64,000 nucleotides of DNA from Bradyrhizobium sp. CB1650 (GTDB lineage Bacteria > Pseudomonadota > Alphaproteobacteria > Rhizobiales > Xanthobacteraceae): NCBI RefSeq assembly GCF_029761915.1, contig NZ_CP121695.1, forward strand, positions 4,183,501 through 4,247,500, read 5' to 3'. Made by a program: the position numbers and the translations under genes. This document shows, piece by piece, positions 59,839 through 62,627 of the stretch (the stretch's first letter is position 1; every line of letters begins with the position of its first letter). The notes below the pieces were generated by a model. That model had not been told where the DNA came from, did not search any database, and saw only the letters and a program-made list of their open reading frames with translations.

Positions 59839-60252
59839 ATGGGCACCAAATCACGCGAAACCATCTATGGCGGGTCGGTGCGGGCGGCGGCTGAGCAGGC
59901 AGCAGAGGCGCGCCAGCAGGCCGACCGGCTCGCGTGTGAGGCGTGGAATAAGCGCATGCTGGCTTTTCAGGGGCCGGCGCAGCCATCGCCGACGCTGGGC
60001 GATGCACTCAACGCTGGCTATCTCTATCTCGAAGTCCGGTGCCTCGGCTGCGACACGAACCAGACCGTGGCGCTCGACATCGTGCGCCGACCGAAGGCGA
60101 CGCCGATCCACGAACTGGAGCGCTACATGCGCTGCAAGGACTGCTCGCAGGTGCGCGGCTATCCATACAAGAGAAGCCATCTGGTGGCGCTGCGGCGGAC
60201 CAAGATCAGCGCGAGCGATCCGCCGTCAACGTGGTGGCCGGGGGAGCGGTAG
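59839..60252 (+). CDS. Hypothetical protein with two CxxC pairs
   Basis: A 137-residue protein. After a helical N terminus it has a probable zinc ribbon: C-L-G-C and, thirty residues later, C-K-D-C. No further domain is visible. It may bind zinc and nucleic acid, but this is a guess from the cysteine spacing. Confidence 0.65.
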   Translation: MGTKSRETIYGGSVRAAAEQAAEARQQADRLACEAWNKRMLAFQGPAQPSPTLGDALNAGYLYLEVRCLGCDTNQTVALDIVRRPKATPIHELERYMRCKDCSQVRGYPYKRSHLVALRRTKISASDPPSTWWPGER

Positions 60253-60313
60253 GCCCTACGGAACTATCGGACGTGCAACTCATTGAGCGGTTATTCATGT
60301 AGAGGACCGGTCT

Positions 60314-60667
60314 GTGAACCACATCGCCGTTATCTTGATCTTACTCGTTGGCAGCTCTTCGCTCGCCTTGGCCCAGAGTGCGGGTGGATCGAGCAGTGGC
60401 GGCTCGGCGGCGAGTGGAACTGCAGCCACCGGCTCAACAGGTTATGCGGGCGGCACCCTATCGACCGGGCATACGATAAGCGGCACTGCGGGCTCCTCCG
60501 ATCCCAACGTGGGCAACGCGCTCAGCCACGCGGGGGCCGGCGGCGACGTGGACGCTTCCTCGGTTACTCAGGCTCCAACCTCGCATGACAACGCCGTTGA
60601 TACGCCCGCCGCTGAACGCGCCATGAAGAACTTGGGCAACACCGATATTGGCATTCTCAAGAAGTAA
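60314..60667 (+). CDS. Small secreted Gly/Ser/Thr-rich protein
   Basis: A 117-residue protein with a signal peptide (1-20, ending ALA). The mature part is low-complexity (Gly, Ser, Ala, Thr), with a more ordered C terminus (A-A-E-R-A-M-K-N-L-G-N-T-D-I-G-I-L-K-K). The start is GTG at 60314 with GAGGA upstream. Function unknown. Confidence 0.65.
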   Translation: MNHIAVILILLVGSSSLALAQSAGGSSSGGSAASGTAATGSTGYAGGTLSTGHTISGTAGSSDPNVGNALSHAGAGGDVDASSVTQAPTSHDNAVDTPAAERAMKNLGNTDIGILKK

Positions 60668-60742
60668 GACCATGCTGCAAGTCGGGCACGGTCTTGGCGT
60701 TTGCGGCTATTCTCGGTAGTCTCCGCGCGTAATGTGCAACCT

Positions 60743-60977
60743 TGTCTGATTGCGGTTGCTGGCACAAGGGTTCAGCTCGTTACCGACTGCCTGCGAGGCT
60801 CGCTCTTGTCTACGAGGTCGACGTTCATAGCCGCCTCACGATGGTAGTCCGAAGATCGGGAGCTGCTATCTATTAGGCGCGTGCTGCAGGCACAGAGGTT
60901 GCAGCGCAGTCATCCCGACCTCGTCCTCGCAGGACGTCGTCCCGCCTTGTCGGCGGATCCGCTGAATTGCTAATTGA
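60743..60977 (-). ncRNA. Candidate bridge/seek guide RNA region of the IS element
   Basis: In IS1111-type elements the guide RNA is encoded in the non-coding stretch downstream of the transposase. Read in the transposase direction, this region contains TGCAACCTCT (complement of 60894-60903), identical over 10 nt to the reconstructed insertion site spanning the junction. It lies in the loop of a potential hairpin (CTGCA...TGCAG). A second short match, GTAGA (complement of 60809-60813), is complementary to TCTAC on the right side of the site but could be chance. Confidence 0.65.
60747..60761 (+). repeat. Left subterminal inverted repeat of the IS element
   Basis: TGATTGCGGTTGCTG lies four bases inside the left junction. 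It is the exact reverse complement of 62071-62085. Confidence 0.93.
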
Positions 60978-62012
60978 TCATGCGGTCGCCTCCTCGCGGG
61001 TCCACCGGAACTCGCTTCCATCTGCCCAGATCCGATGCATCACGATCGCTAATTTTCGTGCGACCGCCACGACCGCTCGGCGAAGGCCGCGTCGCTTGGC
61101 CACCCTTACACCCCAGGCTTTCAATGCGGACCAACGCTGGGTGCGGGTTAGAAGTGCAAGCGCGGCCTGATAAAGTATGGTTCTGAGCATCACATCGCCG
61201 CACCTCGAAATAGCGCCATTCCGATCAGTTTCCCCAGATGCGTATTTGCGTGGTGTGAGGCCGAGATGCGCGCCAACGTCGCGGGAGCGTTGAAAGCGAT
61301 CCGGGTCATCAATGGTTGTTAGAAACGTGATTGCCGTCAGTGCACCAACGCCTGGTATCGTCATGAGCCGCTGACATGTCGGTTCGCGGCGTACTATTTC
61401 AAGTACCATCTTGTGGAGGACGCCGTACTGTTCACGCAGCGCGGCTCGAGCCACAAGCATTGGGCGCAGCATCGCCGCGAGTCGTGGATGGCCATCTGTG
61501 AGTTCATTAGTTTGCTGCTCAAACGTCACTTGAGATATACGACCAGACAGCTTTAAGCCGAAGACGCGTAAGACGCCGCGAATTTCATTCTCGATATCGA
61601 TCTGCTTGATCAGGAGCGTCTTGCGATTGTTGAGAAGCATTCGTAGCTCCTGGCTCAGGTCACCCTTGATATGAACAACGGTGTACCAGCCGACCCGCAT
61701 TACCTGTGCAATAGCGCGAGCGTCGTTTCGATCGGTCTTAATCGGCATTGTCTTAGTCACGCCACGCAGTCTTCGGGGATCGATGCAGACTGCGTGTAAG
61801 CCGGCAGCACGCAGCTCGCTGTACAGCCAACGAGCGAGACCACCAATCTCAATCCCGATCTTGGCGATGGGCAATCCGCTTTCGTTAAGCCAGGCAACAA
61901 TAGCCTCCGGTTCCGAAAGTGCTTTGCCCTCGCGAATGACGACGCCATTCTCGTCCACAACACAGATAGCCGTCTCCTTTAGCGAAACATCCAGACCGAC
62001 ATAGTGCTTCAT
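60978..62012 (-). CDS. IS110-family transposase (DEDD)
   Basis: A 344-residue transposase. The N-terminal RuvC-like DEDD site is Asp8 (Y-V-G-L-D-V-S), Glu55 (G-I-E-I-G-G), Asp94 and Asp97 (K-T-D-R-N-D-A-R-A). The C-terminal Transposase_20 domain has T-I-P-G-V-G and the region G-A-I-S-R-C-G-D with the catalytic Ser. No stops or frameshifts are seen, so it could be active. It acts with an RNA guide and without classical target duplication. Confidence 0.95.
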   Translation of the reverse strand: MKHYVGLDVSLKETAICVVDENGVVIREGKALSEPEAIVAWLNESGLPIAKIGIEIGGLARWLYSELRAAGLHAVCIDPRRLRGVTKTMPIKTDRNDARAIAQVMRVGWYTVVHIKGDLSQELRMLLNNRKTLLIKQIDIENEIRGVLRVFGLKLSGRISQVTFEQQTNELTDGHPRLAAMLRPMLVARAALREQYGVLHKMVLEIVRREPTCQRLMTIPGVGALTAITFLTTIDDPDRFQRSRDVGAHLGLTPRKYASGETDRNGAISRCGDVMLRTILYQAALALLTRTQRWSALKAWGVRVAKRRGLRRAVVAVARKLAIVMHRIWADGSEFRWTREEATA

Positions 62013-62070
62013 ATTCCCGCTCCTGCTGCCGCCGGCTCGCCGGCTTCCCTTCCAGGCTGAGCCTTTCGAG

Positions 62071-62085
62071 CAGCAACCGCAATCA
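62071..62085 (-). repeat. Right subterminal inverted repeat of the IS element
   Basis: CAGCAACCGCAATCA, the exact complement of the left repeat, lies six bases inside the right junction. Confidence 0.93.
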
Positions 62086-62353
62086 CCCCATCTACAGCAT
62101 CACGACGAACCAAGCCGCCATCGCTGCGCTGTTTCGCGTCATGAACCGCTACGTCGGCAACCTCGCGCCGATGACGGGCGTTTTTCCGGACTATCCCGCG
62201 CCAGTGATCCGCAACAAGGACGCTGGGAGCGAGATGGTGCTCATGCGCTCGGGGATGCCGCCACCGCCGCGCACAGGCGGGCCGCCGGTCACCAACATCC
62301 GCAACGCGTCATCGCCGCACTGGCGCGGCTGGCTCAAGCCTGAGAACCGATGC

Positions 62354-62627
62354 TCGGCAAGGCTTTCTGTCCATAACGACGTTCTCTGTCCATAACGACG
62401 TATCAGCCGAAACTGCATAAAGTTCACGCCTCGTTCACGTCTGGTTCCTGCGGTTTAGCCGAAGTTGCATAGTATTCCCGGTCCTTTGCCTGGCGTCGCT
62501 CCACCACGCATTATATTTTCAACAGGTTTCCGTCCAAGACTTGCATAGTTCTCCCGGTATAAGTGGACCGCAGCCGCTCGCGCACCACACATCCGAATGA
62601 ACGCTTCGAGGTCCTGATCCTTCCGTG
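62354..62627. other. Unidentified insertion inside the SRAP remnant
   Basis: About 275 bases separate the two SRAP fragments; the ends are approximate. It contains a 19-bp tandem repeat (62366-62384 and 62385-62403, 17 bases identical) with CTGTCCATAACGACGT. Three related motifs of the form cgaa-n2-TGCATA, two followed by TCCCGGT, occur near 62406, 62459 and 62540. No coding frame is convincing. It may be a small non-autonomous element or a remnant of several events. Confidence 0.5.

Follow-up and report, generated by a model that had tools for sequence, protein, structure and literature searches.

Introduction

The described systems closest to the element analysed here are the IS1111 elements that carry a seekRNA, among them ISEc11, ISPa11, ISKpn4 and ISPst6 (PMC11187229), together with IS621, whose bridge RNA is the IS110-group system of PMC11208160. 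Both papers present bridge-RNA recombinases as programmable DNA-insertion systems, and the mechanism to which we appeal below is already published (PMC11187229, PMC11208160). We examined a 64,000-nt stretch of Bradyrhizobium sp. CB1650 (contig NZ_CP121695.1, positions 4,183,501 to 4,247,500; hereafter the window, whose own numbering is used), in which an earlier note, made from the letters alone, had proposed an IS110/IS1111 element inside the start of an SRAP gene, with a non-coding region that matches its own insertion site. Our analysis indicates that the element is very probably an IS1111-group insertion sequence whose target is chosen by a two-guide RNA encoded downstream of the transposase, and which homes to SRAP starts. 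This reading draws directly on the ends, the empty site, the guide matches, the covariation of guides with targets, the covariation within the RNA and the repeated insertion into SRAP genes, as read from the compared sequences.

Materials and Methods

Relatives of the element were gathered in a family search (391 genomes, of which 58 matched at E ≤ 0.001), a genus search (265 genomes, of which 14 matched at E ≤ 1e-20), a search of genome contigs (45 loci) and searches of two other families (397 and 394 genomes, with 7 and 8 matching at E ≤ 1e-100); 16 genomes were reached via loci, and 2 of the 447 matching plasmid records were used. We picked 30 distinct loci by hand, each with an end or a loop that could be recognised. 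The counts exclude partial copies that have a loop but an unreadable flank (L013/L067, L062 and L088), duplicates of the same locus, and relatives at about 31-52% transposase identity, which were read by eye and mostly have other ends and targets. In the distant listing, L014, L016 and L065 (69%) are members of the SRAP group, and of these L014 and L016 were counted.

For the core dinucleotides, 14 SRAP copies were read against an empty site reconstructed from their SRAP codons, the window copy excepted. Guide mismatches were counted at 14 SRAP sites having a guide and both halves, L010, L014, L015, L016, L037 and L044 being dropped from the 20; these sites are not all independent (L040/L042 and L008/L093). 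In the test with 10 representatives, L136 was added by hand, and relatedness among loci is reduced there but not removed. The Pfam check of SRAP-like frames covered 19 of 20, L015 (19 codons) being left out.

Results

The element spans 60743-62091 in minus-strand orientation (1349 bp), limits that are supported by an identical second copy, by relatives at 93-97% DNA identity that share its ends (except for small left-end changes in L008 and L087), and by an empty site in locus L139. It consists of one transposase gene with a short upstream end and a longer downstream non-coding region, 235 nt of non-coding DNA lying downstream of the gene against 79 upstream, as is found in IS1111. The transposase (344 aa; 60978-62012, minus strand) is of the IS110/IS1111 DEDD type, with matches to PF01548 (57.8 bits) and PF02371 (86.4 bits), both above cut-off, and to NCBIfam NF033542, 'IS110 family RNA-guided transposase' (257.8 bits, cut-off 140). 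With these DEDD domains its length falls within the 330-350 aa of IS1111 transposases, and its translation contains GLTPRKYASG, an instance of the IS1111 motif GL-P----S(t)G. The subterminal inverted repeats, GATTGCGGTTGC at the left end (62073-62084, minus strand, 7 bp off the end) and GCAACCGCAATC at the right end (60748-60759, minus strand, 5 bp off the end), form a perfect 12-bp pair, within the IS1111 range of 7-17 bp. In its subterminal repeats, its non-coding region downstream of tnp, its transposase length and its motif, the element is what PMC11187229 describes as the IS1111 seekRNA family.

The element splits the SRAP gene at codons 4/5, with flanks that read ATG TGC AAC CT on one side (60732-60742, plus strand) and CTAC AGC on the other, the right side running on as YSITTNQAAIAALFRVMNRYVGNLAP. 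The remainder of the gene (62092-62392, plus strand) is decayed, and its 100 open codons gave no Pfam match at E 0.01; the same genome holds three further SRAP matches above the Pfam cut-off. The earlier note had placed the element within the SRAP start, with junctions that could be fixed to the base, and had proposed looking for an empty SRAP site in a relative. The codon 4/5 split bears this out, and so does L139 (genome G808, same genus), where the empty site ATGTGCAACCTCTACAGC stands uninterrupted as predicted: L139 reads ATGTGCAACCTCTACAGCATCACGACCAACCAAGCC without the element, the left flank of the window is matched there over 262 bp at 90%, and beyond the junction the two agree over 32 bp at 97% and then over 78 bp at 78%. 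The SRAP frame of L139 itself has an early stop. On both strands of the window genome, no exact TGCAACCTCTAY site is left, whereas a reversed control pattern gave 3 and 4. A direct repeat of TCTGTCCATAACGACGT was also seen by eye at 62366-62400, directly behind the decayed SRAP fragment.

The genome holds a second copy (L002, G000:C1:8523160-8524509), which lies in the same codon of another SRAP locus. On the simplest reading of these sequences the two copies would be independent insertions, gene conversion of the element also being possible. That they stem from one insertion duplicated together with its flank, a matter of history and not of mechanism, is rather unlikely: the flank beside the right end is indeed similar in both copies over about 620 bp, but the elements show 0 differences over 1349 bp, while 32 mismatches in 625 bp leave the right-end flank at only 94% identity and the other flank stands at 79% over 121 bp, a pattern that gene conversion could likewise yield. 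We also observed that some 620 bp preceding each interrupted SRAP gene are duplicated at 94% (60120-60742 and G000:C1:8522537-8523157), and that the short ORF within this stretch (60314-60667) has no match in Pfam.

Comparison with L002 defines a core dinucleotide, CT, at the right-end junction (60741-60742) and the left-end junction (62092-62093). L002 retains CT at both, reading TGCAACCTCT, then the element, then CTACACC, and the window copy is 2 bp shorter than L002 and lacks the 2-bp core repeat. The seamless join of the window copy is not the usual product, as a two-base core stands at both junctions in 12 of the 14 SRAP copies with both halves readable (the exceptions being L001, the window copy, and L008). 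In transposase orientation, eight of the 14 have AG on both sides and four have AG on the left with another pair on the right (AT in L039, AC in L040 and L042, GG in L087), the window copy and L008 being the two that depart from the pattern. The AC and AT right cores fit a left core base derived from the donor and a right one derived from the target. The loss of 2 bp in the window copy may reflect slippage in CTCT, or two CT cores used in different registers; L008 and L091 also seem to appear in an alternative core register.

Within the downstream region, the right target guide TGCAACCTCT (60894-60903, minus strand) pairs with AGAGGTTGCA, the core plus the right target in transposase orientation, covaries with the flank among relatives, and agrees with the empty site at 10/10 positions. 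The earlier note had reported this 10-mer on the complement of 60894-60903, crossing the junction, and had put chance at well under 1 in 100 trials. The position is confirmed, and the estimate holds as well: no shared word that spans the junction is longer than 10, and words of at least 10 arose in 6 of 2000 dinucleotide shuffles of the non-coding region (P about 0.003). The further suggestion that the guide still matches its target stood for the right guide but not for the left one, which the earlier note does not mention: the left target guide CCTAATAG (60870-60877, minus strand) matches its own left flank TGCTGTAG at TAG only (3/8), whereas the remaining 9 representatives score 5-7 of 8. 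The order of two guides, one for the top and then one for the bottom strand, thus appears in the lineage as a whole and is weak in the left half of the window copy.

The relatives share one loop layout with small variations, namely GACTGC, right guide, hairpin, left guide and TAGATAGCAG; read in transposase orientation, the core and right flank are complementary to the right guide, and the left flank has the same sequence as the left guide. L047 pairs the guide TGCAACGA with the flank TCGTTGCA (SRAP MCNDYE) and TCGTAG with TCGTAG on the left, and L040 and L042 pair ..CCGG with the flank ACCG (MCNRYR). In L038 the guide TGTTTACCT faces the flank AGGTAAACA, with TTGTAG and TTGTAG on the left, and in L136 the guide GATAATGTCC faces GGACATTATC, with GATAAAG and GATAAAG; guide and flank have changed jointly at 9 nt in L038 and 10 in L136. 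Across loci, the longest complementary run of right guides with their own flanks averaged 6.2, compared with 4.9 when flanks were permuted (n = 24, P = 0.00015), and the common suffix of left guides and flanks 4.6 compared with 3.8 (n = 21, P = 0.0003). With one locus per guide the results were P = 0.0017 (right, n = 15) and P = 0.003 (left, n = 14), and with 10 representatives 6.6 versus 4.7 on the right (P = 0.0009) and 5.6 versus 4.6 matches of 8 on the left (P = 0.003). A guide matched no other flank better than its own in only 6 of 10 cases on the right and 5 of 10 on the left, figures kept low in part by the near-identity of many targets. It is scarcely credible that the shared 10-mer arose by chance in a region that is merely a structured 3' end: a few shuffles do reach 10 nt and the second guide is poor in the window copy, yet guides and flanks covary among the relatives.

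The earlier note had also proposed comparing the guide loop of other copies with their flanks. L007 and L135, which lie in non-SRAP places with an unchanged right guide, have right flanks that match it at 9/10 and 10/10, and L038 and L136 have guides and targets that changed together, in agreement with the proposal; the right flanks of L010, L012, L043, L044 and L076, on the other hand, match their own guides poorly, which we assume to reflect rearrangement after insertion. These loci also bear on whether the transposase protein itself reads the SRAP start, with the RNA match a relic or coincidence. Most relatives with transposases 60-99% identical to that of the window do target one conserved gene motif, as such a protein would, but L038 (72% transposase identity) and L136 (62-63%) sit at unrelated sites that match their own changed guides, and L135 (96.7%) sits at a non-SRAP site with a full right-guide match, so that protein reading is highly improbable and guidance by RNA is preferred. 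L136:2408-4024 is an element on a Methylobacterium indicum plasmid, and its target, directly behind traA, differs entirely. Among the more distant IS1111-like relatives, complementarity of right guides to their flanks was likewise seen by eye, for example in L048 (CTGGATACC with GGTATCCAG) and L028 (ATGCGGG with CCCGCAT).

Mismatches between guide and target fell at third codon positions in 14 of 18 cases across the 14 SRAP sites, third positions making up 3 of 10 positions (binomial P = 4e-5). The bias mainly represents synonymous variation of the targets under a fixed protein motif, and it shows that mismatches at synonymous positions are compatible with insertion.

The predicted seekRNA or bridge RNA region (60785-60960, minus strand, with boundaries chosen by us) was modelled from a consensus of 17 sequences. 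In these aligned RNAs, 15 of 37 predicted pairs changed on both sides in a compensatory manner; with the four guide-region pairs removed, 14 of 33 pairs did so, against 5.3 in shuffles, and none of 500 shuffles reached that number. Pairing cells, again without guide pairs, amounted to 94.6%, compared with 90.0% in shuffled and 32-48% in slid versions, and the weakest of five covariation measures, further pair types, gave 29, which 26 of 500 shuffles reached, versus 26.3. On its own, the window RNA folds only modestly better than its shuffled versions (z = -1.9), of which 8 in 200 did as well. Between the target guides lies a small hairpin, GTGC-CTGCA-GCAC (60881-60893, minus strand; helix 3, with 92.6% of cells paired and 2 of 4 pairs changed on both sides). 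The suggestion that the 10-mer lies in a hairpin loop is matched in part by the minimum-energy fold of the window sequence, where ACCTCT, part of the right guide, sits in such a loop, but in the consensus of 17 sequences the 10-mer lies along one arm of an internal loop, next to the small hairpin. The right target guide is thus predicted to lie in a covarying target-binding loop, as in IS1111 seekRNAs. An Rfam scan returned no match at gathering score, and a hit to mir-2217 at 17.7 versus 60 bits was discarded. The proposal of an IS110/IS1111-type guide RNA gains support from position, guide order, covarying structure and guide-flank covariation.

Candidate donor guides were sought by eye in the second RNA loop of 18 rows, where the right-end half fits most and the left-end half some. 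AGACAAG (60805-60811, minus strand) is identical to the right end plus core, AGACA-AG; L040, L043 and L075 have ACACAAG with a right end ACACA, and L044 has ACACAAG with ATACA, one mismatch. For the left end, CCATC (60840-60844, minus strand) is complementary to GATGG, and in L045 and L047 a longer candidate, CCATCTTG, spans CA-AG-ATGG of the joined ends; the left-end candidate is poor in L011, L037, L038 and L041.

An SRAP-like start was present in 20 of the 25 loci with a readable left flank, the window copy included, and the five others were L007, L038, L043, L135 and L136. From codon 5 onwards the frames resemble SRAP, with readings such as YSITTNQ, YSMTKN, YNVTT, YRLTAKQ, YRFNPKDW and YEQHIRW, and codon 4 differs by lineage (Leu, Arg or Asp). 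Nine of the 19 frames checked passed the Pfam SRAP cut-off, L041 matched SRAP below it, and L037 and L093 had only weak matches to unrelated families; seven (L001, L002, L010, L011, L014, L086 and L087; 28 to 168 codons) had no Pfam match, and 11 of the 20 assignments rest on the likeness, by eye, of short frames. Genome G861 holds two copies, 99.85% identical, within two SRAP-like starts. In an order-wide protein search at E ≤ 1e-120 (397 genomes), only the window's own genome matched, so the lineage may be patchy or the cut-off too strict. A first search of viral contigs returned no relative and a later one a partial match at 44%, and phage records held one relative at 37.5%.

In eight loci (L040, L042, L043, L044, L045, L047, L075 and L076) the right-end motif follows the RNA loop only after 580-1933 nt, compared with 117-130 nt in the remaining rows with such a motif. 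Because each flank of L040, L042, L045 and L047 is one half of an SRAP start, the extra DNA in these four is inside the element. A TauE/SafE-type permease is encoded between guide RNA and right end in L045 (3806-4546) and L047 (3608-4510), and a SulP-type permease with a STAS domain in L076 (3145-4758), a unit that is less certain because the transposase match is partial (residues 256-341) and the right flank is non-SRAP. The small cargo ORFs of L040, L043 and L044 had no match in Pfam. L136 likewise has additional DNA ahead of its right end.

Discussion

By analogy with the published mechanism, RNA expression, binding, circle formation and strand exchange at this locus would proceed as follows. 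The downstream region would give rise to a non-coding RNA carrying two target guides, the first of which, TGCAACCTCT, would pair with the top strand in transposase orientation from the core rightward, and the second (..AATAG) with the left side of the bottom strand. The RNA-loaded DEDD transposase would then recombine the circularised element, with joined ends GACA-AG-ATGGGG, with the target, exchange taking place at the 2-nt core AG (CT on the SRAP strand). As the guides of this lineage spell SRAP codons 2-5 of M-C-N-(L/R/D)-Y, a motif whose Cys2 we take to be the catalytic residue, entry would occur at codons 4/5 and in a single orientation.

We give about even odds to a broader reading, in which an alphaproteobacterial IS1111 clade homes by guide RNA to a protein motif, the SRAP start codons including that of the catalytic Cys. 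The guide would have come to fit the SRAP genes available, both in their codons and in the residue that follows MCN (Leu, Arg or Asp), with mismatches tolerated mainly at synonymous positions, and some members would be small cargo transposons with transporter genes. If true, the lineage would document how guide RNAs are retargeted in nature under selection for a target that is multi-copy and not readily able to escape by mutation. The lineage shows a conserved gene start serving as landing pad, and it offers a graded series from exact matches through single synonymous mismatches and a changed residue-4 codon to full retargeting of both guide halves. The evolution of the target is legible as protein, and both the tolerance of mismatches and retargeting in nature become open to testing. 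The rules of bridge-RNA systems can also be learned from natural pairs of guide and target whose empty sites are known. In our searches of the open-licence literature we did not find an SRAP-start target, a natural retargeting series or cargo between guide RNA and right end, and the main text of PMC11208160 does not contain the word SRAP; the SRAP site may nevertheless already be recorded.

Homing to one recurrent sequence is shared by the window lineage with attC-targeting IS1111 elements, although attC is a recombination site, whereas the target of the window lineage is a coding start. Such elements, directed to integron attC sites, were reportedly described by Post and Hall in 2009. The window element resembles the IS1111 seekRNA systems in that the top-strand match lies 5' of the bottom-strand match, as PMC11187229 describes, and it differs from IS621 and the IS110 group, whose RNAs are placed by the same paper at the left end with the reverse guide order, in having its predicted RNA at the right end. 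Compared with the IS1111 seekRNA systems of that paper, the RNA here is predicted from sequence and the target is the protein-coding start of SRAP (PMC11187229).
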